Shown: positions 7,199 to 63,217 of the stretch, piece by piece
How positions within the stretch are numbered: position 1 is the stretch's first letter
Layout: each line of letters opens with the position of its first letter
Assembly (NCBI GenBank): GCA_029204225.1
Contig: CM055094.1
Location: 19,313,540-19,377,539, forward strand
Direction of reading: 5' to 3'
Length of the DNA stretch: 64,000 nt
Source: Diphasiastrum complanatum
Lineage: Eukaryota > Streptophyta > Lycopodiopsida > Lycopodiales > Lycopodiaceae
Notes under the pieces: generated by a model
The model's input: the letters and a program-made list of their open reading frames with translations, nothing else
Told to the model about the DNA's origin: nothing
Database searches by the model: none
Translations under genes and position numbers: made by a program

Positions 7199-7200
<2 letters not shown>

Positions 7201-7239: not shown

Positions 7240-7242
<3 letters not shown>

Positions 7243-7520: not shown

Positions 7521-7525
7521 TTGAT

Positions 7526-9350: not shown

Positions 9351-9352
9351 TT

Positions 9353-12380: not shown

Positions 12381-12429
12381 TTAGGGTTTGAAAAAGTTTA
12401 TCTTTTTGGCTGGTTTTTATGGCAAGAGA

Positions 12430-12760: not shown

Positions 12761-13007
12761 GACAACCTTGGCCAATCGCAGGCCTATGTGGCCTGCTACA
12801 CAAGTCTATGGTAGGCCATGTGGTAAACCACACAAGCCTATGGTAGGACTATGTGGTTGTAGTTGTAGCCTCAACTCGTCGTATGTTGACCTTTCTGAAA
12901 TCCCTGGAATCACTGGCCATTGTACAATCCCCGGGAATGGACTTATATAGGAGAAAAAAGTTGGCACGTGTGAATCCCAGTGACATGTGGCCCAGTCAGT
13001 AGCATTA
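12761..13007 (-). promoter_or_regulatory. Histone-unit promoter remnant without its gene
   Basis: On the minus strand 12915-13005 matches the promoter of the CENH3-like genes: GGCACGTG, then a TATATAAG box (12942-12949) and the start of the leader. The leader and the whole coding sequence are missing, and the array follows within about 150 bp. It is a unit reduced by internal deletion, then cut at 13007 where copia sequence begins. Confidence 0.75.
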
Positions 13008-13997: not shown

Positions 13998-14113
13998 CTG
14001 TTACCAGAGCCGAACCTTCAATAGAGTCATCAGCCGAGTCCAGAACCTGTCTACCACAACATCTTCCAGTTCTGATGACCCAACTCAAGACAGAATTGAC
14101 ATCACCATGGAAA
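13998..14113 (+). pseudogene. E gene 5' fragment
   Basis: Covers the leader GTTACCAGAGCCGAACC and the first codons of E up to CATGGAAAGCC, then switches to block C sequence (TTTCATTTGAG). The intact E continues GATATCTCTGAG. Both parents share GCCT at the switch, which suggests a short-homology join. Confidence 0.6.
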
Positions 14114-14571: not shown

Positions 14572-14574
14572 AAG

Positions 14575-14971
14575 GAATCATATGCACATAAATATGCCTC
14601 TTCGAATCATTCCTACAAGATCAGTCGAATCATCATGCAATAATCATCGTTTCCACATCCTATCAAAGCAACATTGCTCCAAAGTTTTCCACAAATTTCT
14701 AGTCCGCATACACTGTCGAGCAATACTCTACATACGCTGCTCAGAGAGCCTAGCCCCCAGGCTCTGCAATCACTATGGACCGAGTCGAGCGTCCATACTC
14801 TACATTCACTGTGGACTGAGTTGAGCATCCATACTCTGCATACAAAGTTGACTGAGTTGAGTCCATCCAAAGACGACCGATCCGAAGCCCTCCGTAGTCG
14901 ACCGAGCCGAGACACCACTTGTCTGTTACCAGAGCCGAACCTTCAACAGAGTCCTTCGCCGAGTCCAAAAT
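14575..14971 (+). repeat. E5 leader with 36-bp tandem repeats
   Basis: DNA directly before the E start codon. It includes about three units of a 36-bp tandem repeat at 14760-14865 (TCTGCATTCACTGTGGACTG type). Frames stay open on both strands because of the unit length, but E starts only at 14972. Six related copies occur in the window, three of them fused to block C. Confidence 0.8.
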
Positions 14972-16115
14972 ATGTCTGCCACAACATCTTCCAGTTCTGA
15001 TGACCCAATTCTAGACAGAATTGACATCACCATGGAAAGCCTCGATATCTCTGAGATGAACACTTGGTACCAGGAGACACACCAGTTCCTGAGCCACATA
15101 GAGTTCCAACTTCCTCTTTTGATCAGTGGCTATCAGAGCCCATTTCAATTGCATATTGCTTATAACCACACTGACAGATTTTCCAGTTCATGTTACCTCC
15201 TTACCAAAATTTTGTTTATATTATCCCTATTTCAGGATAATATAACACAATCAATAGGACCCTCAAAAAGATTGAATCCACAACATACTTGAAATACATA
15301 GACCCCTCAGTGGACAAATGGAAAAAAAAAGATGGTTATCCTATTGAGGTCATAAATGATAAGCCCTTAGCTGCTCTGTGCGCCTATCTAACGAAATATA
15401 CATAGGGCTATAGGTCCAAGATCACGCGTATCCCCATGAAACTATTCCACATGATGGCTGATTCTAAACTACACGATCAGAACCTTTATGACTCGGCCCA
15501 GTTTGCTTCCAACTGCCTCCATGACTATATCAAGAACAAGCAAACCTCCAATTATTGGGCTATCTTCTGGTAGATGTCACATTGCAGCAGTTGAGCCACT
15601 GACCTCGATTTTGAGACCACTTGATGCTAGCAAATAAAAGCTTGGGAGACTCCCTCAGAACCAGCCAAGAATAACAACTCTACTTCCAGGCCTATTGCAA
15701 CAGATTCCACGCAAGCGGCTTCTCAAAAGAGAAAGAGTTCATTCTCTCCACAAGGGCCAACTACAAAGCACCAAACGGTCGACCTAGTGAAGCTTACATC
15801 AAGAAAGACACCCACGTACTCTATGTCACAGACGAAGGATCGTTACAAGTGAAGCGTCATGCTTCATCAGATGAAACAGACTCAAATGATATGGAGTTTA
15901 CATTCGAGGTGTTCCATGGCCCAAAAGGGCTGTCTAAGAAATGCCATGTAAGAGAGAGAAAATTGTCAAATTTTAAAACTCCGACCGAGTTTTTGGTCTG
16001 CCCGCACAACTCCGATGACTTGACCTCACTAGTAACGTATGTAGTTAACTGGAAGTTGGGTAGCCACAACGCGTGGGGTCCATACTTCAAGATTCTATTT
16101 TCTACCATTAACTAA
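14972..16115 (+). pseudogene. Unrecognised gene E, broken (copy E1)
   Basis: Starts ATG SATTSSSSDDP and runs IDITMESLDISEMNTWYQ, LLISGYQSPF. This is the only copy with Gln (CAG at 15083-15085); the other four have TAG there. After about residue 70 the family continues in another frame, and here part of the PISGADLNTFGFPRG segment is deleted near 15230. The 3' part is open at 15849-16115 and ends YVVNWKLGS, AWGPYFKILFS. No domain is recognised. It is always preceded by the E5 leader and here followed by F, so E and F may be parts of one captured or element-borne locus. Confidence 0.55.
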
Positions 16116-16588
16116 CATGACTTCTCATGTAAATGTAAATCGTATTGCACATCAAAGTTTTCTTTCCATCTACTAAAGTGTTCACATCAAAGGAAAACAG
16201 TCTTATCGATCTGCAAATCATGGCAAGAAACTTTGAATATTTTGGTTCACAATGAGCGCCAACGTGAATCTAAATTTTTGAAACTCAGAAAATACGGAAG
16301 TGTGTTGGATCAAATGAAGCGGCAAGGTTATCTCAAACTTTTGCAATTCAAAAATTTGCAATTTCAACACACATCTATTGAAAAAATATTTTGCTTATTT
16401 TGCTCATAACTGCAAAGCTTTGATTTTGCATATAAAGCAAGAAACATGGAGTGTGATGGATCAAAAAGAGTGCCAAGGTCATTTCCAACTTTTCCAATTA
16501 TTTTTTTTTATAATTAAGATGAGTTTTAATAGCTTACAAGATATATAACAAGTGGGTTTTCTACTAGATTAATCTATCGATTATTAAG
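16116..16588 (+). other. E-F spacer
   Basis: AT-rich DNA between E and F with no gene seen. Nearly identical to 40722-41195. Confidence 0.6.
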
Positions 16589-18186
16589 ATGTCTAAATAT
16601 CATCTCCATATTGATCTTCCCACAGAATATGCTCCACTGTCGAGAAAAAATCTGAAAGGTTCCACCTTACCAGCTCACCAAAGGACGAAAGACAGGAAAT
16701 ATTGTGATCTATGGGTTGATGGAAGTTTGTATCCAATCGATCCAAGCTCAATGCAACATCCAAATTTTAGATCGGTCACACAACTCATATTGTTTTTGTG
16801 TGAAGGACACGATAGTCTATTGGGTTATTGTGAAAGATTGAAAAGTTATGGCATTAGTTATTCAATGAGAAAATCCACTATTTGGAAAATATGTTGAATG
16901 GTTTGCTTACTGACTACCGAGAAAAAGAAATTTTTTTTTGCAAACAAAAGAAGAAAATGAAATCTTGAAGATAGATAATTCTCGTTTGCAAGGTATTATA
17001 TTAAACCTCAACCAAGAAACTGACAATATGAAACTAATTGTACAAACATTGTGTACCTCATATTGTCAAATAAATGTAGAAGTAAACACATTTCGGAAGA
17101 AAATACTGAACAATAAGTGAAAAAGAGTTATTTTAAAAAGTAGTGACGAGCTCTCAACAAGTGGGGGTCAACGGAAAAAAGGAATATATGCTTTCAAGTA
17201 GGATCAATGGTTGTGAATTGTTTTTTTCTAAATCTTATTTTTATTTTGCGGAGCAGCTTTAGTCACCAATGAAAATCCGAAAGACAAGGACATGATTGGA
17301 AAGTCTTTGAGTGCATACTTACAGCCAAGTCAACGACGAGTCTACTTGGAAATCAACGATATTCTCGAATCGTGCCCAAGATTGCAGAGGCCCTTATGGG
17401 CGAAGTCGGCAAGATCATTGACCGAAAATTGATACAAGGAGCATGTGATTATTCTGGTATTAGTAGGGATGCATATGACACAATGTTTAAAATTATCAAA
17501 GAGGCATTTGGACAAGTACATGTAAAACAATTTCCTATTCCCCGGCCCTTTCAAATCAAATTAGCGAGGGATGTGTTAAACAGGGGTTTGCAAAACATCA
17601 TTGGTAATCCTTACCATATCAATAAAATTTATAACTCAAAACATGGCACTTTGTCATATGATTCTACCAACAATATGTTTGTAGATCTGAATCATTTATA
17701 GAGATTTATTGTAAAGTTTTATGGAATCACGAACGAAATTGAAAGGGTTAGTGTTACACTTATGAATGGAACATTAAGCAATACGATAAACTCGGAGAGT
17801 CTTAATTTCAGTGTGCAGTCCGAAAATAATATTTGGTGGTTGGCAGCTTTCCAGGTTTAAATCTATTCTATTGAGTACTAGCAACTAATTCATCTCGAGA
17901 ATTAATGGTTTTGTGTTTTAAGCTAATATTGTTTTGTTATTATAGGTCTGAGTTCAATTCTCTTCAAATAGTTCATGATTTTGTGTTTCAAACAGGTTTT
18001 AAAGAAGATCATGAAATTCTATTTTGGATTTTTAGTAAAACAGAATATCCAGAGATAATTAAGAATCATATGAGCGACACACCACTCAATGTTCCTAGAA
18101 TAGGTGATTTTAAGGTGGAATGGTATTTGGTTCACACACCAAGAGCTACAGGGAGTGAAAGTCCAAAACTTACAGAAATGTTTTAA
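16589..18186 (+). pseudogene. Unrecognised multi-exon gene F (copy F1)
   Basis: Begins ATG SKYHLHIDLPTEYAPLSRK, with ILFLCEGHDSLLGYCERLK; a frameshift near 16860 leads into a coiled-coil stretch (NEILKIDNSRLQ, NLNQETDNMKL). Two intron-like gaps are visible. One is about 17201-17253, ending in a pyrimidine-rich tract and GCGGAGCAG. The other is 17854-17945, from CAG/GTTTAA to TTATTATAG/G. Coding blocks after them include MIGKSLSAYLQPSQRRVYLEI, KIAEALMGEVGKIIDRKLI, NNIWWLAAF and RSEFNSLQIVHDFVFQTGF, ending KLTEMF. A frameshift near 17370 and a stop at 17699 break the line. Function unknown. The copy at 41196-42791 is almost identical, so these lesions or predicted borders are shared. Confidence 0.5.
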
Positions 18187-18284
18187 CTAATCAAACAACA
18201 TTTATATAGCTAAAACCAATAAAACCCAAGTCGTACACTCGTCGATCCAACAACGGATCAGATCTATTGCACGTAATACAACCG

Positions 18285-18660
18285 TCCACACGTGTGAGAC
18301 CACACGTGCTACAATACACGTCAATCTGCCATTCGGCCGCATGCCCACACGTGCGAGCTAACACGTGCCAGAACACACGTCACCAAACCATTCGACCACA
18401 TGGCCACATGTGCAAGTTTCACGCGTGCGGATACAGAAGTGTGGTCCCACACGTCAATTACTGATTGGGCCACGTGACCACACGTGCGAGCCGATACGTG
18501 CAAGAACACATGTCGCTGATCCATTCGGCCACGTGTCCCCACATGGGATCCCAGACGTAATGATCCAGACGTGCAGTTTTACACATGCGTATACAAACGT
18601 GTGGTTCCACATGTCAGCTATTGACTGGGCCACGTGTCGCTGGGATTCACACGTGCCAAC
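18285..18660 (+). promoter_or_regulatory. CACGTG-rich promoter array of the CENH3-like gene
   Basis: I count nine perfect CACGTG hexamers in about 380 bp, mostly as ACACGTGY, plus many one-base variants (CACATG, CACGTC, TACGTG). They sit in degenerate direct repeats anchored by CCATTCGGCC or TGATTGGGCC, spaced about 56-103 bp apart. CACGTG is the plant G-box, bound by bHLH and bZIP factors. The array ends just before a TATA box and lies directly upstream of the histone-like ATG, as in both other units. Confidence 0.75.
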
Positions 18661-18669
18661 TTTTTCTCC

Positions 18670-18677
18670 TATATAAG
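18670..18677 (+). promoter_or_regulatory. TATA box of histone unit 1
   Basis: TATATAAG, 335 bp before the ATG. The same octamer is at the same distance in unit 2 and in the inverted unit at 63545-63552. A start of transcription near 18700 would be expected. Confidence 0.7.
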
Positions 18678-18753
18678 TCCATTCTCGGGGATTGTATAGG
18701 GTTTCGCGTAATTTGCTGTCATGTTTGATTGCTTCCATACGACCTGCATTCGT

Positions 18754-18996
18754 GATATCGCCAGCATGCTAGCGACCTCGTCCCCAGGCCTAGTCCTTAC
18801 ACCCTCTCATGTCGTAGCGATATCAGCCTGACTTTCCCAGTATCGCCATCATGCAAGCCCCTGCCTCTCCCCGCCTGTCTCTGCCACTCTCTCGCGTTGT
18901 AGCGATATCACCCTTAGACTTCTCAGTGTTGCCATTACGCGAGATAATTTAGCTCTCTCTTCTGCTGTATCTCTGTCCTCGCATGGTATAGATATC
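18754..18996 (+). repeat. Leader with GATATC repeats
   Basis: Between TATA box and ATG, GATATC occurs at 18754, 18819, 18904 and 18991, that is every 65-87 bp, inside diverged repeats of the type GTAGCGATATCA...CAGTATCGCCATCATGC. Probably transcribed as 5' leader. It could bind a factor, fold, or simply be a fossil satellite. Confidence 0.6.
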
Positions 18997-19004
18997 CGGC
19001 CTCA

Positions 19005-19463
19005 ATGGCTCGGACGAAGCAAACTGCTAGGCTTACCCATTTTGTTCAACCATCCCGTCCCCTGACATTTGAACCCATACGTGTGCAAAGACGCGGAAGA
19101 CCTCGCCGTCCATGGTTGAGGGACATCAGGGCCTTACAGAGGTACACCAAACTTGTGATCCTGTAAGCAGCCTTGTACCGGGCTGTGAGGGAGGTTACAC
19201 AAGATATGACCACGCATCTGCCCTATGCAGTGAGGTGGAATATCGCTGCATTGGAGGCCCTCCATATTGCATACGAGGACTTCCAGACAAAATTGTTTGA
19301 GGAATCAATGCAGTGTTCCATTCATGGCAAGAGCGTGACACTGATGCCCAAGGACATGCTTCTTGTCATGAGGTTTCGAAACACCTATGACAACGGTATG
19401 CCACATGGCAAATCATACAGGCTTGAGGGTTGCCATGTGGCAAGCTATGTAGGCCTACCATAA
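19005..19463 (+). pseudogene. CENH3-like histone gene, unit 1, one stop
   Basis: Same protein as 43611-44069. ATG gives MARTKQTAR, then an Arg-rich RRGRPRRP segment and the H3 fold. An AAA codon has become TAA at 19164-19166, codon 54, just before helix alpha-1, so only a 53-residue tail fragment would be made. After the stop the frame is open to 19463. It also differs in GKSVTL (Arg to Ser at the DNA-contacting loop 2) and EESM. It retains the VRW residue pair. Same promoter, TATA and leader as the uninterrupted copy, 24606 bp away. Confidence 0.85.
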
Positions 19464-20198
19464 CCTTGTATGTCAAGCCAACTAGGCCCTGTGCCACGTA
19501 GGCTTGAGTGGACCTAGAGATCTATATATATATATAGGTGGGCTCAAAAGTTGCCACTTGGCAAACCACACAGGCCTACCATAGGCTTGCGTGGCAGGCC
19601 ACATAGGCATGGCATGTTTCTGATGCTTCCTACATAAGAATGTCGCAGGCTACCACATAGGCTTGTCATAGGCTTGTGTGGCAAGCAAACCAGGCTCTGC
19701 CATGTAGGCTTGAGCGGAGCTAGAGAGAGAGAGCTGGGGCTCCCAAGTTGCCATGTGGCAAGCCATGTAGGCATGTGATGAGATAAACCATAGGCTTGCG
19801 TGGCAGGCCACATAGGCATGGCATATTTCTGATGCTTCCCACGTAAGCATGTCGCAGGATACCACATGGGCTTGCCATAGGCTTGTGTGGCAAGCCAGCC
19901 AAGCTCTGCCATGTAGGCTTGAGTGGAGCTAGAGAGAGAGAGCTGGGCCTCCCAAGTTGCCATGTGGCAAGCCATGTAGGCATGTCATGAGATAAACCAC
20001 ACAGGTTGGGGACTTGCCATGTGGCAAGCCATGTAGGCCTATCATAGGCTTGCGTGGTAGGTCATATAGGCATGACATAGGCTTGATGCTAGTATGTTCA
20101 TGCTGGTATGTTGTAGTCTGCCATATAGGCTTGACATAGGCTTGTGTGGCAAGCCAACTAAGCTATACCACGTGGGTTTCCCATGTAGGCTTGAGTGG

Positions 20199-20200
<2 letters not shown>
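19395..20200 (+). repeat. GGCTTG/TGCCACATGGCA array after unit 1
   Basis: Tandem, degenerate repeats with a longer unit of about 195-210 bp marked by CCCAAGTTGCCATGTGGCAAGC at 19743 and 19952 (and a variant at 19549). Short elements are TGCCACATGGCA, CATAGGCTTGCGTGGCAGGCC and GAGCTAGAGAGAGAGAGCT. Includes an (AT)n run near 19522. The first elements form the C-terminal codons and stop of the histone-like frame. Minus-strand frames here are repeat artefacts. Confidence 0.85.

Positions 20201-20201
<1 letters not shown>

Positions 20202-20238
<37 letters not shown>
20202..20238 (+). repeat. (GA)n microsatellite, 37 bp
   Basis: GA run between the array and a block B junction. The equivalent run is 31 bp at 44755. 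Confidence 0.95.
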
Positions 20239-20241
<3 letters not shown>

Positions 20242-20284
20242 TCACACATGAACTACTTCCCTGTGGTATGGCCTAGCATCAACG

Positions 20285-20647
20285 TTGAAAAAAATATCTG
20301 ATGGAGATAAGAAGGGTCCCAAAAAATATCTGATGGAGATAAGAAGGAAAGCAGCCTTGTACCGGGTTGTGAGGGAGGTTACACAAGATATGACCACGCA
20401 TCTGCCCTATGCAGTGAGGTGGAATATCGCTGCATTGGAGGCCCTCCATATTGCATACGAGGACTTCCAGACAAAATTGTTTGAGGATTCGATGCAGTGT
20501 TCCATTCATGGCAAGAGGGTGACACTGATGCCCAAGGACATGCTTCTTGTCATGAGGTTTCGAAACACCTATGACAGCGGTATGCCACATGGCAAATCAT
20601 GCAGGCTTGAGGGTTGCCATGTGGCAAGCCATGTAGTCCTACCATAA
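20285..20647 (+). pseudogene. Truncated CENH3-like histone fold fused to block B
   Basis: The histone sequence starts abruptly at AAAGCAGCC (20348), the codons for KAALYR, and keeps helices alpha-1 to alpha-3 (VREVTQDM, VRWN, FEDSMQC, IHGKRVTLMPKD). The whole tail, alpha-N helix, promoter and leader are missing. The frame is open from a TTG at 20285, with block B-derived DGDKKG codons in front; there is no ATG in that lead apart from one at 20333 in 'YLMEIRR'. The histone-fold part ends, as in the full copies, in the array-coded tail GMPHGKS. A low-level product is possible but no promoter is seen. Confidence 0.7.
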
Positions 20648-21091
20648 CCTTGTATGTCAAGCCAACTGGGCCCTGTGCCACGTAGGCTTGAGTGGACCTA
20701 TAGATCTATATATATATATAGGTGGGCTCAAAAGTTGTCACTTGGCAACCCATACAGGCCTACTATAGGCTTTCGTGGCCGGGCACATAGGCATGGCATA
20801 TTTCTGATGCTTCCCACGTAAGCATGTCGCAGGCTACCGCATAGGCTTGCCATAGGCTTGTGTGGCAAGCAAACCAAGCTCTGCCATGTAGGCTTGAGCG
20901 GAGCTAGAGAGAGAGAGCTGGGGCTCCCAAGTTGCCATGTGGCAAGCCATGTAGGCATGTCATGAGATAAACCATAGGCTTGCGTGGCAGGCCACATAGG
21001 CATGGCATATTTCTGATGCTTCCCAAGTAAGCATGTCGCATGCAAGCCAACGAAGCTATACCACGTGGGTTTGCCATGTAGGCTTGAGTGG

Positions 21092-21411: not shown

Positions 21412-22195
21412 ATCGATGTTCAACAAAATCATATATATTATAATCTTCACACGTGTGGAATCAAGATCTACAAGAAAATCAACTTTCTACACATAGAAAA
21501 CCAAGATAGAGAAAATCACATGAGATGGACATAAGAGATGAATTCTCCACAAAGAAAGAAACTTTGATGATTATTTCTCCACTTAGGTACAACTATTTAT
21601 AGCTTCCAAAATGTCATTTGGCTACTTGCCCCAAACTTGACCTAATTTGGAAACTTCTAGATACTTTATCAAAAACCTAGAAAATCTAGTCTAGATGCAA
21701 TGTACCAAAATTAGCCAATTAGAATGGGTCCAAAATCGACCTCATCCACTGATCTACTTGCCAGAGGTAGTTAAACAACTATTTAGGCCCTTATTAACAA
21801 ATATGAAACTAACTCGAAGTTGAGATTCATTTTGGCCTCCAAAATTGCCAAATGAAAAACCAAACTCGTTGACAATTTTTCACACCATGTCCTCTAGACA
21901 TCTCCATTGATGAATACAATTTATAAGTTTTTGATAGCAATGTACCAAAATTTAGCCAATTAGAATGGGTCCAAACTCGACCTCATCCACTTATCTACTT
22001 GCCAGAGGTAGTTAAACCACTATTTAGGCCCTTATTAACAAATATGAATCTAACTCGAAGTTGAGATTCATTTTGGCCTCCAAAATTGCCAAATAAAAAA
22101 CCAAACTACTTGACAATTTTTCACACCATGTCCTCTAGACATCTCCATTGATGAATACAATTTATAAGTTTTTGAAAGCAATTCCGAATGCAATC
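21412..22195 (-). repeat. Block B spacer with 240-bp tandem repeat, inverted
   Basis: Inverse of 6181-6930. Two ~240-bp units are bounded by TTATAAGTTTTTGA near 21925 and 22165. No gene seen. Confidence 0.8.
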
Positions 22196-24064: not shown

Positions 24065-25570
24065 TCAGGAATAGTTGGCATCATGCTTATGATATTGCTC
24101 GCGCAGCTACTTGGAGCAGGTTCGAGTCAGCATTTGTCTTCGACCAGCAAATGCTTTTGATCTCTGGGTGTAAGCCTTATCAGCATTGATGATAAAGCCT
24201 GAAGTGCACATCTCTTCGAAGATTTGTATGGAGTCTGCAGGAAAGTATTGTATCCGTAAATAGATCCTGGTATCCTCCATGTGAAGCGTCGGTTTGTTGG
24301 GATTGATGAAAAATTGTGGATCCTGCTCAAACCTTCGGCCCATGACAGTCATCAGAAACTGGCAGAACTTGTGTTGTAGCTTGATTGTAGGATCGTCAGA
24401 ATCGGAAGTTAATTTGCAGAAATTCTTGATGGATGTATGACATTCCTTCTGAGAAGAGAACGAGCCATCTATTATCGCAAAGTTGCAAGGATATGCTGAT
24501 ATGTTGTCTTCCGATCTCCATGCTAGCGCTCGTCTTCTACGAAAACTTGGGTCGAAAGAAGGATCATTCTAAATTTGCTTTGGTGATTGATCAAGCATTT
24601 CATAGACGTACGTATCTTTGAGGAATGGAGCTCTCCAACCGGTCGACGCAATTAAATCTGGCTGAGAAGAGCTCCCGATCGAATTAGATGTCGTCGTTGG
24701 AACTGACTTGTCCCCGTCTATTCGTCCTATCACAGTCGACTTACTGGCATGCTTATGATTTTGCTCACGTAGCCAGTTGAAGCAGTTTCGAGTCAGTATT
24801 TGTCTTCGACCAGTGAATGCTTTTGATCTGTGGGTGTACATGTAACCCTCATCAGCATTGATAATAAATCCTGAAGTGCACATCTCTTCGAAGATATGTA
24901 TGGAGTCTGCAGGAAAGTATTGAATCCGTAAATAGATCCTGGTATCCTCCATGTGAAGGACCGCTTTGTTGGGATTGATGGAAAATTGTGGATCTTGCTC
25001 AAACCTTTGGCCCATGACAGTCATCAGAAACTGGCAGAACTTGTGTTTTAGCTGGATTGTGGGATCGCGAGAATCGGAACTCAGTTCCCAAAAATTATTG
25101 ATTGATGTATGACATTCCTTCTGAGAAGAGAACGAGCCATCTATTATCGCAAAGTTGCAAGGATATGCTGATATGTTGTCTTCCGATCTCCATGCTCGTC
25201 TTCTACGAAATCTTGGGTCGAAAGAAGGATCATTCTGGACTTGCTTTGGTGCTTGCTCAAGCCTTTCATTCACGTGCGTATCTTTGAGGACTGGAGCTCT
25301 CCAACCGGTAGACGTCATTAATTCTGGCTGAGAAGAGCTCCCGATCAAATTAGATGTCGTCGTTGGAACAGACTTGTTTTGCGTCCTACCAGAATCGAAT
25401 TACTGATATCATGTGCCTCCAAATCTCTTTTGCATATAGATTTCGTAGTTTCTGATATTTTGGCCAAACGGATTTTCTCAGCCGCCGATACTATGTTCAT
25501 TTCTAGGTCCTGCTCCATCTTCCTAAGCCGATGTTGCATCAACAATCCTTTTCTGAGACTCTTCAGCCTC
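24065..25570 (-). pseudogene. Block A two-repeat coiled-coil gene, broken (copy A4)
   Basis: Same unrecognised family. The acceptor CTGTAAATG (25571 onward, read on the minus strand as CATTTACAG) is intact, and the native stop is at 24065-24067. A long frame (24569-25348) covers repeat 1 and the start of repeat 2, with WRAP, FRRRRAWRSEDNIS, CNFAIIDGS and MEDTRIYLR. Breaks lie near 25375 (deletion in the RKDADKS region), at about 24570 (CAG to TAG type change in the QIQNDPS region), and near the start of the coiled coil. It is the copy closest to open for repeat 1. Confidence 0.7.
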
Positions 25571-37499: not shown

Positions 37500-39130
37500 G
37501 GATGTGAAAGTCCCTACTTTGGAGGTTCGGATGCAAGATCATGTTGAGCGGCTCGACTTCCATGTTATGAATCTTGATAGAACTTATGTAATCCTAGGAT
37601 ATGAATGGTTTTTTGATAAATCAGATTCGTTGAAAATAGATTTTTAAAACCATACTATTGTATTTAAAGATAAGTTTGACCAGATAGTCTCTATTTATGG
37701 GGAGACTAATGTACTCCCATCACCGATGGTTTCCTTTGCGGAAGTTATGGAAAAACTACATAATTCTAAGTATGAGCTTTTTTATCTTGTTTTGAAATCT
37801 CGTATGCATTGTGATGTGAATGTGTTAACATGCTTTAACACCAAAAATTAGCATCAAGAACAGCTTTTAATGCAAGATTTAAAACAAGAGTTCAATGATG
37901 TTTTTCCTAAATAGCTAAGATTTTTTGAGGTACATACTTCTAATTATATTGCAGTCCGTTGTTAGAACATAATCAAATTTTTCTGAAATGAAATCTTTGA
38001 AATGTTTTAGGAAAGAACAAGAACATAAAGATAGATTTTCAATTTCAAAATTGCAGAAAACATCAAACAGAAAGTACCATTCACTTTTGATGTTAGGTAA
38101 GTATGACCAAGCAAACACAATATTATGGAAGGACTTGTGTATATAAGGCCAAAGATCTGTAATAAAATACAAGTGTAAAAGTGTCTTACATGAACGGTCT
38201 CAAACATTCTATTATAGTAGCGTAAATGCAAAAATATCTTTGTCTTGTCCTTGCGCGTGCTGAGCTGTAGTCGATCCACCGTATTCCTAGTGAGAGTTCT
38301 TCTATGCAGATCCTCGTCATCCTGCAAGCTAGTTAATACCTGTAAAAGTTCAGTCTTTTAGCCAGTAAGTCTTCTTTTGCACCACTGCCTTGTCCATCCT
38401 TTCCTTTATATCATGTATACTTCTTTCTTTTTCCCATATTTTGTCCAGAAACCACCAAACTAGGGTTGTTTAGGTTGAAAGAACCAGGCCTTTCATTTGA
38501 GTTTTGGAAGAATTTATCTTGGACAATGATAAAACGTGGTCTTTTGAGGAGGCGTTGAATCTCTCTGATGTTTTCATCATCTCCTAAGTTGGCAAGGAGT
38601 TTAGCAGAAGGGTTTGCAGCAAATCAATCATGTGCTGGCGTAAAAAGAGAAAAGTATGTGTGACTTGACAACATCTCTGGCGAGCTTGTGTAGCCAAAGA
38701 AAAAAGCCATTCATCTAATTTTGGAAGGATGGACCAAGGAAGAATTTACTAAGATTGTTCATCATGAAACACGATGATCCCAAAAAAAGGAAATGACATG
38801 GAGACCCATTTTTTTTTAATTTTATACAAAAAAATACCCATATTTAAAATGCTTCAAATAAAGATATTGTAATGCTAAAAAAAATGTTGTATTTTGCAAG
38901 AAAATTAATCAACCTACTAAAATTTTGTTAATAGATTTTTATTAATAATTGCACATTAGTTTACATGAAATAATAGTACTATTCAAAATAAAATCATTGG
39001 ACACAACCATTAGAATAACTAAAAAAAAAAATTTGCTTATTAAAACAAAAGTTCTTTAATTTTATTTTAAAAATTTTAGAAGTGTTTTGAATTACAATTC
39101 TTGTATCAAGAAAAATATTTTTTAAATTAT
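37500..39130 (+). mobile_element. Ty3/gypsy relic: protease end, RT linker, AT-rich tail (block C)
   Basis: Continues the protease: VPTLEVRMQDHVERLDFHVM, VILGYEWFFDKSDSL, then FDQIVSIYGETNVLPSPMV, VLTCFNTKN, and LKQEFNDVFPK before a stop. RT, RNase H and integrase are absent. The region after 38000 is a non-coding tail shared by all block C copies. From 38497 on it is duplicated at 14114. Confidence 0.8.
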
Positions 39131-39134
39131 GACC

Positions 39135-39547
39135 TAAGCTGAACCAAAAGGAATCATATGCACATAAATATGCCTCTTCAAATCATTCCTACAAGAACAG
39201 TTGAATCATCATGCAATAATCATCGTTTCCACATCCTATTAGAGCAACATTGCTCCAAAGTTTTCCACAAATTTCTAGTCTCCATACACTGCCGAGCAAT
39301 ACTCTACATACACTGCTCAGAGAGCCTAGCCCCCATGCTCTGCAATCACTGTGGACCGAGTCGAACGTCCATACTCTGCATTCACTGTGGACTGAGCTGA
39401 GCGTCCATATTCTGCATACAAAGTTGACTGAGCCGAGTCCATCCAAAGACGACCGATACGAAGCCCTCCACAGTCGACCGAGCCGAGACTCCACTTGACT
39501 GTTACCAGAGCCGAACCTTCAATAGAGTCATCAGCCGAGTCCAGAAC
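39135..39547 (+). repeat. E5 leader with 36-bp tandem repeats
   Basis: Duplicate of 14575-14971, 24576 bp away, with three 36-bp units at about 39338-39445. Confidence 0.8.
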
Positions 39548-40721
39548 CTGTCTGCAACAACATCTTCCAGTTCTGATGACCCAACTCAAGACATAATTGA
39601 CATCACCATGGAAAGCCTCGATATCTCTGAGATGAACACTTGGTACCAGTAGGCACACTAGTTCCTGAGCCACATAGAATTCCAACTTCCTCTTTTGATC
39701 AGTGGCTAGCAGAGCCCGTTTCGATTGCATATTGCTTATAACCACACCGACAGATTTTCTAGTTCATGTTACATCCTAACCAAAATTTTGTTTATATTAT
39801 CCCTATTTCTAGAGCTGACCTGAATACATTTGGCTTCCCTAGGGGAGCAAACACTGTCAATAGGACCCTCAAAAAGATTGAATCCACAACATACTTCAAA
39901 TACATAGATCCCTCAGTGGACAAATGGAAAAACAAAGATGGTTACCTTATTGAGGTCATAAATGATAAGCCCTTAGCTGCTCCGTGCGCCTATCTAACGA
40001 AATATACATAGTGCTATAGGTCCAAGATCACGTGTATCCCCATGAAACTATTCCACATGATGGCTGATTCTAAACTACATGATCAGAACCTTTATGACTC
40101 TGCCTACTTTGCTTCCAACTGCCTCCATGACTATATCAAGAACAAGCAAACCTCCAATTATTGGGCTATCTTCTGGTAGATGTCACTTTGTAGCAGTTGA
40201 GCCACTGACCTCGATTTTGAGACCACTTGATGCTAGCAGATAAAAGCTTGGGAGACTCCCTCAGAACCAGCCAAGAATACCAACTCTACTTCCAAGCCTA
40301 TTGCAACAGATTCCACGCAAGCGACTTCTCAAAAGAGAAAGAGTTCTTTCTCTCCACAAGGGCCAACTGTAAAGCACCAAACGGTCGACCTAGTGAAGCT
40401 TACATCGAGAAAGACACCCACGTACTCTATGTCACAGACGAAGGATCGATACAAGCGAAGCGTCATGCTTCATCAGATGAAACAGACTCAAATGATGTGG
40501 AGTTTACATTCAAGGAGTTCCATGGCCCAAAAGGGCTGTCTAAGAAATGCCATGTAAGAGAGAGAAAATTGTCGAATTTTAAAACTCCGACCGAGTTTTT
40601 GGTCTGCCCGCACAACTCCGATGACTTGACCTCACTAGTAACGTATGTAGTTAACTGGAAGTTGGGTAGCCGCAACGCGTGGGGTCCATACTTCAAGATT
40701 CTATTTTCTACCATTAACTAA
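39548..40721 (+). pseudogene. Unrecognised gene E, longest copy (E2)
   Basis: The start codon is CTG (39548-39550) instead of ATG and codon 38 is TAG, so it cannot be translated normally. It is nevertheless the longest version: PISRADLNTFGFPRG, FKYIDPSVDKWKNKDGYLIEV, KYT-stop, then SLRTSQEYQLYFQAYCNRF, FSKEKEFFLSTRANCKAPNG, HVLYVTDEGSIQAKRHASS, CHVRERKLSNFKTPTEFLVC and AWGPYFKILFS. The 3' half (40227-40721) is one clean 164-residue frame. No family recognised. F follows 475 bp downstream. Confidence 0.55.
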
Positions 40722-41195
40722 CATGACTTCTCATGTAAATGTAAATCGTATTGCACATCAAAGTTTTCTTTCCATCTACTAAAGTATTCACATCAAAGGA
40801 AAACAGTCTTATCGATCTGCAAATCATGGCAAGAAACTTTGAATATTTTGGATCACAATGAGCGCCAATGTGAATCTAAATTTTTGAAACTCAGAAAATA
40901 CGGAAGTGTGTTGGATCAAATGAAGCGGCAAGGTTATCTCAAACTTTTGCAATTCAAAAATTTGCAATTTCAACACACATCTATTGAAAAAATATTTTGC
41001 TTATTTTGCTCATAACTGCAAAGCTTTGATTTTCCATATAAAGCAAGAAACATGGAGTGTGATGGATCAAAAAGAGTGCCAAGGTCATTTCCAACTTTTC
41101 CAATTATTTTTTTTTTATAATTAAGATGAGTTTTAATAGCTTACAAGATATATAACAAGTGGGTTTTCTACTAGATTAATCTATCGATTATTAAG
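40722..41195 (+). other. E-F spacer
   Basis: Duplicate of 16116-16588. No gene seen. Confidence 0.6.
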
Positions 41196-42791
41196 ATGTC
41201 TAAATATCATCTCCATATTGATCTTCCCACAGAATATGCTCCACTGTCGAGAAAAAATCTGAAAGGTTCCACCTTACCAGCTCACCAAAGGACGAAAGAC
41301 AGGAAATATTGTGATCTATGGGTTGATGGAAGTTTGTATCCAATCGATCCAAGCTCAATGCAACATCCAAATTTTAGATCGGTCACACAACTCATACTGT
41401 TTTTGTGTGAAGGACACGATAGTCTATTGGGTTATTGTGAAAGATTGAAAAGTTATGGCATAAGTTATTCAATGAAAAAATCCACTATTTGGAAAATATG
41501 TTGAATGGTTTGCTTACTGACTACCGAGAAAAAGAAAATTTTTTTTGCAAACAAAAGAAGAAAATAAAATCTTGAAGATAGATAATTATCGTTTGCAAGA
41601 TATTATATTAAACCTCAACCAAGAAACTGACAATATGAAACTAATTGTACAAACATTGTGTACCTCATATTGTCAAATAAATGTAGAAGTAAACACATTT
41701 CGGAAGAAAATACTGAACAATAAGTGAAAAAGAGTTATTTTAAAAAGTAGTGACGAGCTCTCAACAAGTGGGGGTCAACGGAAAAAAGGAATATATGCTT
41801 TCAAGTAGGATCAATGGTTGTGAATTGTTTTTTTCTAAATCTTATTTTTATTTTGCGGAGCAGCTTTAGTCACCAATGAAAATCCGAAAGACAAGGACAT
41901 GATTGGAAAGTCTTTGAGTGCATACTTACAGCCAAGTCAACGACGAGTCTACTTGGAAATCAACGATATTCTCGAATCGTGCCCAAGATTGCAGAGGCCC
42001 TTATGGGCGAAGTCGGCAAGATCATTGACCGAAAATTGATACAAGGAGCATGTGATTATTCTGGTATTAGCAGGGATGCATATGACACAATGTTTAAAAT
42101 TATCAAAGAGGCATTTGGACAAGTACATATAAAACAATTTCCTATTCCCCGGCCCTTTCAAATCAAATTAGAGGGATGTGTTAAACAGGGGTTTGCAAAA
42201 CATCATTGGTATTCCTTACCATATCAATGAAATTTATAACTCAAAACATGGCACTTTGTCATATGATTCTACCAACAATATGTTTGTAGATCTGAATCAT
42301 TTATAGAGATTTATTGTAATGTTTTATGGAATCACAAACGAAATTGAAAGGGTTAGTGTTACACTTATGAATGGAACATTAAGCAATACGATAAACTCGG
42401 AGAGTCTTAATTTCAGTGTGCAGTCCGAAAATAATATTTGGTGGTTGGCAGCTTTCCAGGTTTAAATCTATTCTATTGAGTACTAGCAACTAATTCATCT
42501 CGAGAATTAATGGTTTTGTGTTTTAAGCTAATATTGTTTTGTTATTATAGGTCTGAGTTCAATTCTCTTCAAATAGTTCATGATTTTGTGTTTCAAACAG
42601 GTTTTAAAGAAGATCATGAAATTCTATTTTGGATTTTTAGTAAAACAGAATATCCAGAGATAATTAAGAATCATATGAGCGACACACCACTCAATGTTCC
42701 TAGAATAGGTGATTTTAAGGTGGAATGGTATTTGGTTCACACACCAAGAGCTACAGGGAGTGAAAATCCAAAACTTACAGAAATGTTTTAA
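41196..42791 (+). pseudogene. Unrecognised multi-exon gene F (copy F2)
   Basis: Near-identical duplicate of 16589-18186 with the same start (MSKYHLHIDLPTEYAPLSRK), coiled-coil stretch, two intron-like gaps and KLTEMF end. It differs by a 2-nt loss near 42172 (KLARDVLN region of copy F1), which shifts the frame, so F2 is the more damaged copy. Lesions common to both copies may instead be unrecognised introns. It ends about 100 bp before the CACGTG promoter of the CENH3-like gene. Confidence 0.5.
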
Positions 42792-42892
42792 CTGATCAAA
42801 CAACATTTATTTAGCTAAAACCAATAAAACCCAAGCCGTACACTCGTCGATCCAACAACGGATCAGATCTATTGCGCGTAATACAACCGTCC

Positions 42893-43263
42893 ACACGTGT
42901 GAGACCACACGTGCTACAATACACGTCAATTTGCCATTCGGCCGCATGCCCAAACGTGCGAGCTAACACGTGCCAGAACACACGTCACCAAACCATTCGA
43001 CCACATGGCGACATGTGCAAGTTTCACACGTGCGGATACAGAAGTGTGGTCCCACACGTCAGTTACTGATTGGGCCACGTGACCACACGTGCGAGCCGAT
43101 ACGTGTAAGAACACATGTCGCTGATCCATTCGGCCACATGTCCCCACATGGGATCCCACACGTGTTGATCCAGAGGTGCAGTTTCACACATGCGTATACA
43201 AATGTGTGGTTCCACATGTCAGCTATTGATTGGGCCACATGTCGATGGGATTCACACGTGCCA
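42893..43263 (+). promoter_or_regulatory. CACGTG-rich promoter array, unit 2
   Basis: Eight perfect CACGTG hexamers counted, with the same repeat anchors as 18285-18660. Several sites differ by single bases between the units (for instance CACACGTG at 43155 against CAGACGTA in unit 1), so sites have been both gained and lost. Confidence 0.75.
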
Positions 43264-43275
43264 ACTTTTTTCTCC

Positions 43276-43283
43276 TATATAAG
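43276..43283 (+). promoter_or_regulatory. TATA box of the uninterrupted CENH3-like gene
   Basis: TATATAAG, 335 bp before the ATG at 43611, right after the CACGTG array. Position and context are conserved in all units. Confidence 0.7.
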
Positions 43284-43339
43284 TCCATTCCCAAGGATTG
43301 TATAGGTTTTCTCGTAATTTGCTGTCGTGTTTGATTGCT

Positions 43340-43605
43340 TCCATACGACCTACATTCGTGATATCGCCAGCATGCGAGCGACCTCGTCCCCAAGCCTATT
43401 CCTTACACCCTCTCATGTCGTAGCGATATCAGCCTGACTTTCCCAGTATCGCCATCATGCAAGCCCCTGCCTCTCCCCGCCTGTCTCTGCCACTCTCTCG
43501 CGTTGTAGTGATATCACCCTTAGAGTTCTCAGTGTCGCCATTACGCGAGATAATTTAGCTCTCTCTTCTGCTGTATCTCTGTCCTCGCATGGTATAGATA
43601 TCCGG
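43340..43605 (+). repeat. Leader with GATATC repeats, unit 2
   Basis: GATATC at 43360, 43425, 43510 and 43597, the same spacing as unit 1. There is no long upstream frame that would clearly block use of the histone ATG, though I did not check every short one. Confidence 0.6.
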
Positions 43606-43610
43606 CCTCA

Positions 43611-44069
43611 ATGGCTCGGACGAAGCAAACTGCTAGGCTTACCCATTTTGTTCAACCATCCCGTCCCCTGACATTTGAACCCATACGTGTGCAAAGACGC
43701 GGAAGACCTCGCCGTCCATGGTTGAGGGACATTAGGGCCTTACAGAGGTACACCAAACTTGTGATCCTGAAAGCAGCCTTGTACCGGGCTGTGAGGGAGG
43801 TTACACAAGATATGACCACGCATCTGCCCTATGCAGTGAGGTGGAATATCGCTGCATTGGAGGCCCTCCATATTGCATACGAGGACTTCCAGACAAAATT
43901 GTTTGAGGATTCGATGCAGTGTTCCATTTATGGCAAGAGGGTGACACTGATGCCCAAGGACATGCTTCTTGTCATGAGGTTTCGAAACACCTATGATAGC
44001 GGTATGCCACATGGCAAATCATGCAGGCTTGAGGGTTGCCATGTGGCAAGCCATGTAGGCCTACCATAA
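43611..44069 (+). CDS. Centromeric histone H3-like protein (CENH3/CENP-A-like), uninterrupted copy
   Basis: A 152-residue, intronless H3-family protein. The tail starts MARTKQTAR like H3, but Lys9 is Leu; an AT-hook-like RRGRPRRP lies at residues 29-36. Helix alpha-N is about 37-50 (WLRDIRALQRY), alpha-1 55-68, alpha-2 78-106, loop 2 GKRVTL, alpha-3 MPKDMLLVMRF. Features typical of CENH3 rather than canonical H3: Trp78 where H3 has Phe84, loop 1 four residues longer than H3, FEDSM and VTLMPKD. Residue 107 is Tyr, where every other copy and canonical H3 (His113) have His. From about residue 131 the protein is encoded by the flanking repeat array (GMPHGKS...), a foreign C-terminus of about 22 residues. 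It has a TATA box and CACGTG promoter. If made, it would be expected to enter nucleosomes; expression is unknown. Histone family is certain; CENH3 class is likely. Confidence 0.85.
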   Translation: MARTKQTARLTHFVQPSRPLTFEPIRVQRRGRPRRPWLRDIRALQRYTKLVILKAALYRAVREVTQDMTTHLPYAVRWNIAALEALHIAYEDFQTKLFEDSMQCSIYGKRVTLMPKDMLLVMRFRNTYDSGMPHGKSCRLEGCHVASHVGLP

Positions 44070-44750
44070 CCTTGTATGTCAAGCCAACTAGGCCTTGTGC
44101 CACGTAGGCTTGAGTGGACCTAGAGATCTATATATATATATATATAGGTGGGCTCAAAAGTTGCCACTTGGCAAACCACACAGGCCTACCATAGGCTTGC
44201 GTGGCAGGCCACATAGGCATGGCATGTTTTTGATGCTTCCTACATAAGCATGTCGCAGGCTACCACATAGGCTTGCCATAGGCTTGTGTGGCAAGCAAAC
44301 CAGGCTCTGCCATGTAGGCTTGAGCAGAGCTAGAGAGAGAGAGCTGGGGCTCCCAAGTTGCCATGTGGCAAGCCATGTAGGCATGTGATGAGATAAACCA
44401 TAGGCTTGCGTGGCAGGCCACATAGGCATGGCATATTTTTGATGCTTCCCACGTAAGCATGTCGCAGGATACCACATAGGCTTGCCATAGGCTTGTGTGG
44501 AAAGCCAACCAAGCTCTGCCATGTAGGCTTGAGTGGAGCTAGAGAGAGAGAGCTGGGCCTCCCAAGTTGCCATGAGGCAAGTCATGTAGGCCTATCATAG
44601 GCTTGCGTGGTAGGTCATATAGGCATGACATAGGCTTGATGCTAGTATGTTCATGCTGGTATGTTGCAGTCTGCCATATAGGCTTGACATAGGCTTGTGT
44701 GGCAAGCCAACGAAGCTATACCACGTGGGTTTGCCATGTAGGCTTGAGTG

Positions 44751-44754
<4 letters not shown>
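44001..44754 (+). repeat. GGCTTG/TGCCACATGGCA array after unit 2
   Basis: Begins inside the histone frame. It holds the same ~195-210 bp longer units as 19395-20200 but one unit fewer, and an (AT)n run near 44130. Minus-strand open frames are repeat artefacts. Confidence 0.85.

Positions 44755-44785
<31 letters not shown>
44755..44785 (+). repeat. (GA)n microsatellite, 31 bp, imperfect
   Basis: GA run interrupted once by C (44761). Confidence 0.9.
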
Positions 44786-45134
44786 GAGTCACACATGAAC
44801 TACTTCCCTGTGGTATGGCCTAGCATCAACGTTGAAAAAAATATCTGATGGAGATAAGAAGGGTCCCAAAAAATATCTGATGGAGATAAGAAGGGTCCTG
44901 AAAGCAGCCTTGTACCGAGCTGTGAGGGAGGTTACACAAGATATGACCACGCATCTGCCCTATGCAGTGAGGTGGAATATCGCTGCATTGGAGGCCCTCC
45001 ATATTGCATACGAGGACTTCCATACAAAATTGTTTGAGGATTCGATGCAGTGTTCCATTCATGGCAAGAGGGTGACACTGATGCCCAAGGACAAGCGTCT
45101 TGTCATGAGGTTTCGAAACACCTATGACAGCGGT

Positions 45135-46038
<904 letters not shown>

Positions 46039-46301: not shown

Positions 46302-47090
46302 ATCGATGTTTAACAAAATCATATATATTATAATCTTCACACGTGTGGAATCAAGATTTACAAGAAAATCAACTTTCTACACATAGAAAACCAAGATAGA
46401 GAAAATCACATGAGATGGACATAAGAGATGAATTCTCCACAAAGAAAGAAACTTTGATGATTATTTCTCCACTTAGGTACAACTATTTATAGCTTCCAAA
46501 ATGTCATTTGGCCACTTGCCCCAAACTTGACCTAATTTGGAAACTTCTAGATACTTTATCAAATACCTAGAAAATCTAGTCTAGATGCAATGTACCAAAA
46601 TTAGCCAATTAGAATGGGTCCAAAATCGACCTCATCCACTGATCTACTTGCCAGAGGTAGTTAAACAACTATTTAGGCCCTTATTAACAAATATGAAACT
46701 AACTCGAAGTTGAGATTCATTTTGGCCTCCAAAATTGCCAAATGAAAAACCAAACTAGTTGACAATTTTTCACACCATGTCCTCTAGACATCTCCATTGA
46801 TGAATACAATTTATAAGTTTTTGAAAGCAATGTACCAAAATTTAGCCAATTAGAATGGGTCCAAACTCGACCTCATCCACTTATCTACTTGCCAGAGGTA
46901 GTTAAACCACTATTTAGGCCCTTATTAACAAATATGAAACTAACTCGAAGTTGAGATTCATTTTGGCCTCCAAAATTGCCAAATAAAAAACCAAACTACT
47001 TGACAATTTTTCACACCATGTCCTCTAGACATCTCCATTGATGAATACAATTTATAAGTTTTTGAAAGCAATTCCGAATGCAATCAGGGT
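46302..47090 (-). repeat. Block B spacer with 240-bp tandem repeat, inverted
   Basis: Duplicate of 21412-22195, two ~240-bp units. No gene. Confidence 0.8.
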
Positions 47091-48620: not shown

Positions 48621-48905
48621 TGTGTCTAAATATTTTTTGAACAGAATATGTGTAACCTAATTATTGTTGATTTTGATTTAATGAGCATTCAATGTTCATT
48701 TAATACATTAAATCAAATATCAACGATGAGAACATATATATATACACAATGAGAAGAAGGTATATCTAGATCATAGATTATGAACTAAAGTGGACATTTC
48801 AAAAGCAGTGGAGAGATAGATTAGCAGTTGAGTGCCATATACATTGGCCCTAGATGACTATAATGGTCAATCTTAAAAACTCCAATCAACAAATGTTGAT
48901 GTTTT
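48621..48905 (-). other. Block A 3' spacer, shortened
   Basis: Inverse of 5050-5381. It joins block A directly in the TTTTCGACCAGC region, so about the last 25 residues of the block A protein are deleted here. No gene. Confidence 0.5.
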
Positions 48906-50342
48906 CGACCAGCAAATGCTTTTGATCTCTGGGTGTAAGCCTTATCAGCATTGATGATAAAGCCTGAAGTGCACATCTCTTCGAAGATTTGTATGGAGTC
49001 TGCAGGAAAGTATTGTATCCGTAAATAGATCCTGGTATCCTCCATGTGAAGCACCGGTTTGTTGGGATTGATGAAAAATTGTGGATCCTGCTCAAACCTT
49101 CGGCCCATGACAGTCATCAGAAACTGGCAGAACTTGTGTTGTAGCTTGATTGTAGGATCGTCAGAATCGGAAGTTAATTTGCAAAAATTCTTGATGGATG
49201 TATTGCATTCCTTCTGAGAAGAGAACGAGCCATCTATTATCGCAAAGTTGCAAGGATATGCTGATATGTTGTCTTCCGATCTCCATGCTAGCGCTCGTCT
49301 TCTACGAAAACTTGGGTCGAAAGAAGGATCATTCTGAATTTGCTTTGGTGATTGATCAAGCATTTCATAGACGTACGTATCTTTGAGGAATGGAGCTCTC
49401 CAACCGGTCGACGCAATTAACTCTGGCTGAGAAGAGCTCCCGATCGAATTAGATGCCGTCGTTGGAATTGACTTGTCCCCGTCTTTTCGTCCTATCAGAG
49501 TCGACTTACTGACATGCTTATGATTTTGCTCACGTAGCCAGTTGAAGCAGTTTCGAGTCAGTATTTGTCTTCGACCAGTGAATGCTTTTGATCTCAGGGT
49601 GTACATGTAACCCTCATCAGCATTGATGATAAATCCTGAAGTGCACATCTCTTCGAAGATATGTATGGAGTCTGCAGGAAAGTATTGAATCCGTAAATAG
49701 ATCCTGGTATCCTCCATGTGAAGGACCGCTTTGTTGGGATTGATGGAAAATTGTGGATCTTGCTCAAACCTTTGGCCCATGACAGTCATCAGAAACTGGC
49801 AGAACTTGTGTTGTAGCTAGATTGTGGGATCACGAGAATCGGAACTCAGTTCCCAGAAATTATTGATTGATGTATGACATTCCTTCTGAGAAGAGAACGA
49901 GCCATCTATTATCGCAAAGTTGCAAGGATATGCTGATATGTTGTCTTCCGATCTCCATGCTCGTCTTCTACGAAATCTTGGGTCGAAAGAAGGATCATTC
50001 TGGACTTGCTTTGGTGCTTGCTCAAGCCTTTCATTCACGTGCGTATCTTTGAGGACTGGAGCTCTCCAACCAGTAGACGCCATTAATTCTGGCTGAGAAG
50101 AGCTCCCGATCAAATTAGATGTCGTCGTTGGAACTGACTTGTCCGCGTCTTTGCGTCCTACCAGAATCGAATTACTGATATCATGTGCCTCCAAATCTCT
50201 TCCGCATATAGATTTCGTAGTTTCTGATATTTTGGCCAAACGGATTTTCTCAGCCGCCGATACTATGTTCATTTCTAGGTCCTGCTCCATCTTCCTAAGC
50301 CGATGTTGGATCAACAATCCTTTTCTGAGACTCTTCAGCCTC
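48906..50342 (-). pseudogene. Block A two-repeat coiled-coil gene, most open copy (A5)
   Basis: Two long frames: 49817-50342 (coiled coil plus the first half of repeat 1) and 48821-49789 (rest of repeat 1 through repeat 2, 322 residues). They are separated by one CAG to TAG change in the TIQLQHK region near 49816. A 2-nt loss in the IVDLQH region also puts the coiled-coil start out of phase with the acceptor. The C-terminus is lost by deletion. Both repeats are readable end to end: two WRAP motifs, two FRRRRA motifs, two MEDTRIYLRIQYFPADS motifs. Confidence 0.7.
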
Positions 50343-62308: not shown

Positions 62309-62830
62309 CCACTCAAGCCTACATGCCAAACCCACGTGGTATAGCTTAGTTGGCTTGCCACACAAGCCTATGTCTAGCCTATATGGCAGACTGCAACATA
62401 CCAGCATGAACATACTAGCATCAAGCCTATGTCATGCCTATATGACCTACCACGCAAGCCTATGATAGGCCTACATGGCTTGCCACATGGCAACTTGGGA
62501 GCCCCAGCTCTCTCTCTCTCTAGCTCCACTCAAGCCTACATGGCAGAGCTTGGTTGGCTTGCAACACAAGCCTATGGCAAGCCTATGTGGTATCCTGCGA
62601 CATGCTTACGTAGGAAGCATCAGAAACATGCCATGCCTATGTGGCCTGCGACGCAAGCCTATGGTAGGCCTGTGGTAGGCAACTTTTGAGCCCACCTATA
62701 TATATATATAGATATCTAGGTCCACTCAAGCCTACGTGGCACAGGGCCCAGTTGGCTTGACATACAAGGTTATGGTAGGCCTACATGGCTTGCCACATGG
62801 CAACCCTCAAGCTTGTATGATTTGCGATGT
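62305..62830 (-). repeat. GGCTTG/TGCCACATGGCA array, inverted
   Basis: Inverse of the arrays after the histone-like genes, with one longer unit and an (AT)n run near 62698. It ends inside the reading frame of the inverted CENH3-like gene. Confidence 0.85.
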
Positions 62831-63217
62831 GGCATACCATTGTCATAGGTGTTTCGAAACCTCATGACAAGAAGCATGTCCTTGGGCATCAGTGTCATGA
62901 ATGGAACACAGCATCGAATCCTCAAACAATTTTGTCTGGAAGTCCTCGTATACATTATCGAGGGCCTCCAATGCAGCGATATTCCACCTCACTGGATAGG
63001 GCAGATGCGTGGTCATATCTTGTGTAACCTCCCTCACAGCCCGGTACAAGGCTGCTTTCAGGATCACAAGTTTGGTGTACCTCTGCAAGGCCCTGATGTC
63101 CCTCAACCATGGACGGCGAGGTCTTCCGCGTCTTTGCAGACGTATCGGTTCAGATGTCTGGGGACAGGACGGTTGAACAAAATGGGTAAGCCTAGCAGTT
63201 TGCTTCGTCCGAGCCAT
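62770..63217 (-). pseudogene. CENH3-like histone gene, inverted unit 3, frameshifted
   Basis: ATG at 63215-63217 on the minus strand; MARTKQTARLTHFVQPS, QRRGRPRRP, and the H3 fold to FEDSMLCSIH, then an 11-nt deletion in the GKRV region (about 62898) shifts the frame. The remainder (TLMPKDMLLVMRF) is open at 62770-62955 in the other frame, ending in the array-coded tail. This is the most divergent copy (LPYPVRW, ALDNVYEDF) and its DSMLC agrees with the plant CENH3 consensus better than the DSMQC of the other copies, so it may be nearer the ancestor. Confidence 0.85.

Follow-up and report, generated by a model that had tools for sequence, protein, structure and literature searches.

Transposons counter silencing with accessory genes, and some viruses encode histones, as is the case for the Marseilleviridae and, with H4, for bracoviruses. 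These virus-borne histones resemble the gene described here in that a selfish element carries a nucleosomal histone of its own, while none of them is known to be of the CENH3 type or to reside in a transposon.

Ulp1 protease domains are already known from DNA transposons, and the nearest analogue of the present gene is the VANC/KIU genes of the Arabidopsis VANDAL elements. These act against the silencing of related elements, a Ulp1-bearing gene going together with DNA methylation loss there, although no role is assigned to Ulp1 itself (PMC13317346). Ulp1-carrying Mutator-like elements, including VANDAL and KIU (Kaonashi), share with the present elements a plant DNA transposon gene with a Ulp1 domain (PMC13317346 and PMC2836005). 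VANDALs are, however, described as non-TIR Mutator elements, whereas the elements here have inverted ends and gave no Pfam transposase match, and the main text of the review PMC13317346 showed no mention of histones. Ginger1, which carries C-terminal Ulp1 or OTU proteases, is alike in being a TIR element with a Ulp1 domain, but its Ulp1 is fused to an integrase-like transposase (PMC2836005), whereas here Ulp1 lies behind a histone. Host gene pieces are also found inside Pack-MULEs and Helitrons; these are usually non-functional fragments (PMC13317346), while the present gene recurs in several lineages and appears to be under constraint. Full-text literature searches, which covered few subscription papers and no bioRxiv preprints, turned up no histone carried by a transposon.

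Judged by its sequence, the frame analysed here encodes the histone domain of a gene that belongs to a group of DNA elements, among which several diverged lineages can be told apart, and the window copies are truncated derivatives of it. The anatomy of this histone-bearing transposon gene can be given with high confidence. The explanation as a whole, in which the full element would use the protein on chromatin, is considered probable.

The histone frame and its amplified copies

The window is the whole 64-kb stretch of DNA that was analysed (C3:19313540-19377539), from a genome of 1.745 Gb in 5176 contigs. It contains a 152-codon open frame (43611-44069, plus strand) whose product has an H3-type histone fold, with a match to PF00125 (Histone) at E=1.3e-19 and, in a PDB search, 173 sequences at E<=1e-3, the best of them an H3 variant (2.6e-18). 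The first-pass annotation had described an H3-family frame with Trp at H3 position 84, DSM and VTLMPKD, all of which were found, and a loop 1 four residues longer than in H3, which was borne out by a count of 16 versus 12 residues from H3 residue 73 to 84. Residues 131-152 are not histone and match histone-free repeat DNA at 12583-12515, with a partial match to a 209-bp unit as well. The features of the window are listed below, with family A denoting the lineage of this frame.

43611..44000, plus strand: H3/CENH3-type histone domain, codons 1-130 of a truncated family A transposon gene; open frame, Tyr at H3 His113
44001..44069, plus strand: 22 further codons and a stop, non-histone, repeat-family DNA
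19005..19463, plus strand: second histone copy, 97.8% identical, with one internal TAA stop
62770..63217, minus strand: third histone copy, with a frameshift after codon ~108
20347..20647, plus strand: histone 3' half from codon 53-54, with the same repeat-derived tail as the 43611 copy
44896..45200, plus strand: histone 3' half from codon ~52, with the same repeat-derived tail as the 43611 copy
42735..43610, plus strand: 5' region of the histone gene, common to dispersed elements
12921..13003, minus strand: 83-bp match to the histone-gene 5' region with no histone behind it
40507..40536, plus strand: left element end of the copy bearing the 43611 frame, resembling the inverted-repeat motif CATTAGAGGAGTT in diverged form
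15901..15930, plus strand: the same left end, of the second large copy
41199..42737, plus strand: candidate transposase remnants (matched 41199-41462 and 42633-42737), up to the deletion junction 42734/42735
16592..18132, plus strand: candidate transposase remnants of the second copy (matched 16592-16855, 17300-17728 and 18028-18132)
44188..44591, plus strand: 209-bp tandem repeat after the truncated histone

The five copies or fragments that had been counted in 64 kb were thus recovered, and the CENH3-like frame is amplified with repeats as had been claimed, its copies in the window being tied to the repeat units. The additional "empty promoter" came down to, at most, the 83-bp match at 13003-12921. 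Likewise, the absence of introns applies to the 43611-44069 frame as it stands, because the frame is cut short, and does not extend to its fuller relatives, which have introns further on. Within the 64-kb window there was no match to PF02902 (Ulp1), and no Rfam families or tRNAs were found.

Searching the genome with the window protein yielded 7537 first-look candidates, the best 150 of which were scored, and all 150 match (E<=2.8e-64). By hand count, 94 of these best 150 lie in C3:18.5-21.8, C3:29.9-30.2 or C14:49.4-49.9 Mb; 55 of the 94 are stop-free over the matched part, and 81 extend to residue 151 or 152, i.e. they share the fusion to repeat DNA. The other 56 fall outside these arrays and are distributed over 18 of the contigs C1-C23 plus 3 scaffolds; they reach no further than residue 139 and are 78-85% identical to the window protein. 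Since the 81 tail-sharing matches are confined to the three array regions, the window copies represent one truncated form that was amplified, while the parent family is dispersed. The dispersed copies retain DNA that the window copies lack, both behind codon 130 and at an internal deletion that is common to the two large window copies (junctions 42734/42735 and 18129/18130). By comparison with them, the window copies are derivatives: they have lost an internal stretch, break off at codon 130, run on into repeat DNA and have multiplied as an array, which the positions of the histone matches suggest to span some 3 Mb on C3. These copies lack the protease and are probably inert, and the same is probably to be expected of the open copy at 43611-44069, which also has Tyr at position 113.

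The window is further organised into units ~24.6-25 kb apart with ~95% identity, and inverted pieces occur too (14551-21040, 39127-45595). The 209-bp tandem repeat follows truncated window histone copies at 44188-44591, 19578-19999 and 45319-45727, and its minus strand holds long open frames of up to 144 aa. A paired 241-bp tandem unit was seen at three places (6176-6660, 21697-22182 and 46587-47072), and repeated frames (MTVMGQRFEQDPQFSINPNKAVLHMEDTRIYLR...) at 1674-2291, 3994-4740, 24569-25348 and 48821-49789.

The full-length gene, its element and its lineages

Frames of 376-382 codons (with leader) continue past the histone in the dispersed loci L031, L032 and L036. Here the histone is followed by a basic, Pro/Lys-rich linker, by another ~200-230 residues and, in families A and C, by exons with a Ulp1/C48 SUMO-protease core. 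Using hand-spliced exons, PF02902 matched family C at E=1.9e-6 (28.3 bits, over the cut-off of 20.7) and family A at E=9e-4 (19.5 bits, just under the same cut-off). Both families have His, Asn, Gln and Cys in catalytic order, with Asn in place of the catalytic Asp of the His-Asp-Gln-Cys set of Ulp1. The A and C genes have GT-AG intron borders, such as tttgcag/TCACC, ctcag/TCTTC, GAG/gta and AAG/gta, in homologous positions. Individual family A copies show damage or change: one splice donor is lost in L036, and L058 has Arg for Gly behind the catalytic Cys.

Two long stretches, the C10 copy and the C5 copy, were read for element structure. The C10 element measures ~10.1 kb (4870 to 14956 of the joined stretch) and has inverted ends of ~30 bp, CATTAGAGGAGTT...CCAAAAGGG, with 25/30 columns identical; transposase-like frames on the plus strand are followed by a third frame on the other strand and then by the histone-Ulp1 gene. 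Five other copies, including two from the window, also carry the left end, while paired ends were seen in one copy only, and no target-site duplication was found at this single copy with both ends. None of the candidate transposase frames tested had a credible Pfam match, Mutator models included; conserved D/D/E-like and CxxC motifs were judged by eye. The transposase-like frames of A and E are 44% identical over 191 aa (E=1e-60), and a piece from A is 53% identical over 66 aa to one from C at locus L055 (E=1e-23), so that the histone adjoins related transposase-like frames in A, C and E. Further frames lie near the histone gene in A and E elements (L074:1253-2787 and L032:314-976, both on the minus strand), in differing relative orientation; these two had no credible Pfam match, and their kinship was judged by eye only.

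Lineages other than A were surveyed through 12 loci from a genome search with an Arabidopsis CENH3 fold, which sorted into eight of family C, one of family B, two of family E and one of family A; family D was found upstream of the C1 copy of family A. On the sequences compared, there are five diverged lineages, A-E, with the histone on most chromosomes and in hundreds of copies in this one genome. Family B starts with MARTKQTARLT... and has Trp84 and a loop 1 of H3 length (+0); its first exon and only the start of its Ulp1 exon were seen. Family C starts with MDRRKQTRR... and has Phe84 and a loop 1 one residue longer than in H3 (+1), with the Ulp1 exon seen in several loci. Family D has Phe84, a +0 loop 1 and the linker, and family E is a stand-alone histone with Val84 and a +0 loop 1. 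A, B and C can be aligned along exon 1. Compared with the window histone, C shows 43% identity and E 37%, and B is closer. Trp84 and the long loop 1 are not common to all lineages, so both marks may be convergent, and the presence of five diverged lineages on most chromosomes makes the acquisition look old.

In a search with family C, all 119 scored rows (of 9561 candidates) match, nearly all over the full 337 residues; they occur on each of the contigs C1-C23 and on scaffolds, some of which may duplicate chromosome places in this count, and 26/119 are stop-free while 93/119 have stops. For family E, at least 47 of 150 scored matches cover the histone, on 19 of the contigs C1-C23 (five scaffold matches left out), and the remaining ones match the transposase part. 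Six of the family E histones lie within ~0.9 Mb at C15:31.0-31.9 Mb, a grouping that may reflect segmental duplication or an insertion preference. Pattern-seeded scans of viral contigs found no relatives.

Relationship to CENH3 and to the host's own histones

The transposon histones resemble CENH3/CENP-A in their H3-type fold, Trp84 (A and B), long loop 1 (A) and divergent tail and, in the tree with hand-supplied references, in their position on the CENH3 side. They differ from it in their hundreds of transposon-borne copies, the protease fusion in A and C, the lack of the 11-residue segment, and Phe or Val at position 84 in C, D and E. A host CENH3 is a single or low-copy gene, whereas at least 150 matches were found for family A and at least 119 for family C.

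A tree of 32 rows, some of which are long branches, gathers the transposon histones into a single group (92/88), which unites with hand-supplied Arabidopsis and rice CENH3 (78/94). With hand-supplied plant, human and yeast sequences in the set, a grouping of the transposon histones with canonical H3 was rejected (p=0.03), also with thinly filled columns dropped; with references limited to sequence recovered in the searches, it was not rejected (p=0.096). In the histone-fold phylogeny that the first-pass annotation had named as a check, the frame falls on the CENH3 side when the hand-supplied references are retained. An exclusive clade of A and B with plant CENH3 was rejected (p=0.011). Pro63, Ala65 and Ser107 of the transposon histones mostly occur in the hand-supplied plant CENH3s as well. 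Sequence affinities thus favour a position of the lineages nearer to CENH3 than to H3, and CENH3 ancestry; because Trp84 and loop length differ between the lineages, the p-value depends on the references and branches are long, the transposon histones are termed CENH3-affiliated rather than CENH3. A canonical H3 pseudogene was rejected as an identity for the frame, given the missing 11-residue segment, the long loop and the fused tail in its relatives.

A distinct, intron-flanked exon of CENH3 type was found once in the genome, at C3:74791653-74791823 (L069), with a GT donor after it; it lacks Pro63 and Ala65. It was one of 15 search matches, the other 14 being H3 matches, 13 of them canonical. 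This exon is a candidate for the single-copy host CENH3, and no next exon was found in ~7.7 kb downstream. A C11 fragment was also considered as a CENH3 exon and rejected, being a piece of canonical H3 beside Copia-like frames. Canonical H3 has 13 matches in the genome, 12 of which were read. An intron-containing H3.3-like gene lies at approximately L070:649-1454, with like exon matches on C7, C20, C21 and C22.

These results bear on the original proposal of a local capture, in which a CENH3 gene or transcript of the host was taken up here and multiplied along with the repeats. In that view an open copy could interfere at centromeres by competition, and dead copies could be a source of small RNAs directed at the parent gene. 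The CENH3-like features of the frame, the ties of its copies to repeats and the separate single exon in the genome would all fit such a capture. However, five lineages of related histones are found across most chromosomes, and two of them, A and C, include a protease part; the distances of the window histone to C and E, with B closer, point to an old split; and the dispersed A copies hold DNA missing from the window copies. Capture at this site followed by spread with these repeats is not supported in view of the dispersed, diverged transposon lineages, which also led to the rejection of a recent local cDNA capture, and the proposal as a whole is now regarded as highly improbable.

Selection and possible functions

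In family C, the histone had a dN/dS of 0.15 and the tail one of 0.40 (15 pairs from 6 of 8 loci, picked by protein similarity), with one of the 15 pairs at 0.88. In family A, three pairs gave 0.30 for the histone and 0.39 for the tail, and eight dispersed copies gave 0.33. Of the 30 array copies with the highest protein scores, 22 have an intact frame. The set gave a dN/dS of 0.35, but its distinct changes (40 silent, 67 replacement and 5 stop) are not far off the neutral expectation of 25.5/70.8/3.7%. Because loci were picked by protein score, the dN/dS values are biased low and the open-frame counts are biased toward conservation, while comparing the histone with the tail of the same copy suffers less from this bias. 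The histone part of family C looks to be under constraint.

Constraint is relevant to the question of whether the histone and Ulp1 pieces are mere passengers, captured in the manner of Pack-type elements and without function for the element. Gene-fragment capture is common in plant transposons (PMC13317346), many copies here are broken, and the array copies look near neutral. The shared exon-1 architecture of A, B and C, the homologous introns of A and C, the pairing of the histone with related transposase-like frames in A, C and E and the low ratio of ~0.15 for the family C histone (a biased sample) speak against it, and passenger capture is considered quite unlikely.

The preferred reading of a histone that the full element uses on chromatin draws on the protein itself. 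DNA-contact and tetramer residues are largely kept (Arg69, Arg83, Arg116, Thr118, Asp123 and Arg129), and an ARTKQTAR tail is present in A and B; together with the protease, these features make a chromatin-acting protein likely. At element DNA, the histone fold would be built into nucleosomes or engage histone chaperones, and the tethered protease would there strip SUMO from silencing factors, and SUMO removal would ease expression or transposition of the element. The function would then be one of self-protection or targeting at the level of chromatin. This anti-silencing mechanism is put forward tentatively, at somewhat less than an even chance. Weighing against the overall reading are the Asn at the position of the catalytic Asp, the changes in L036 and L058, the stops in most family C matches, the family C pair at 0.88, the near-neutral changes of the array copies, the missing target-site duplication at the one complete element and the lack of a Pfam match for the transposase. 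A more far-reaching idea, possible though rather doubtful, is that a plant DNA transposon superfamily encodes a centromere-type histone, fused to a SUMO protease in several lineages, for private chromatin on its own DNA, built on a nucleosome variant that would either resist normal host silencing or borrow the CENH3 loading pathway.

The tree position nearer CENH3 than H3 also raises a different role, in which centromeres would take up the CENH3-like histone and, along with it, the insertion machinery of the element. Centromere-directed integration has reportedly been published for an Arabidopsis retrotransposon and was counted for this role, as were local family E groups such as the six on C15. 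Nevertheless, such clusters may be segmental duplications, the matches listed for A, C and E are scattered over many contigs, and lineages without Trp or the long loop are also numerous, so centromere targeting or drive appears unlikely.

If transposons maintain a histone among their regular genes, this would make nucleosome composition part of the conflict between transposon and host, and would offer a direct test case of whether selfish DNA can specify its own nucleosomes. At a practical level, CENH3 homology searches in this genome return hundreds of transposon genes.
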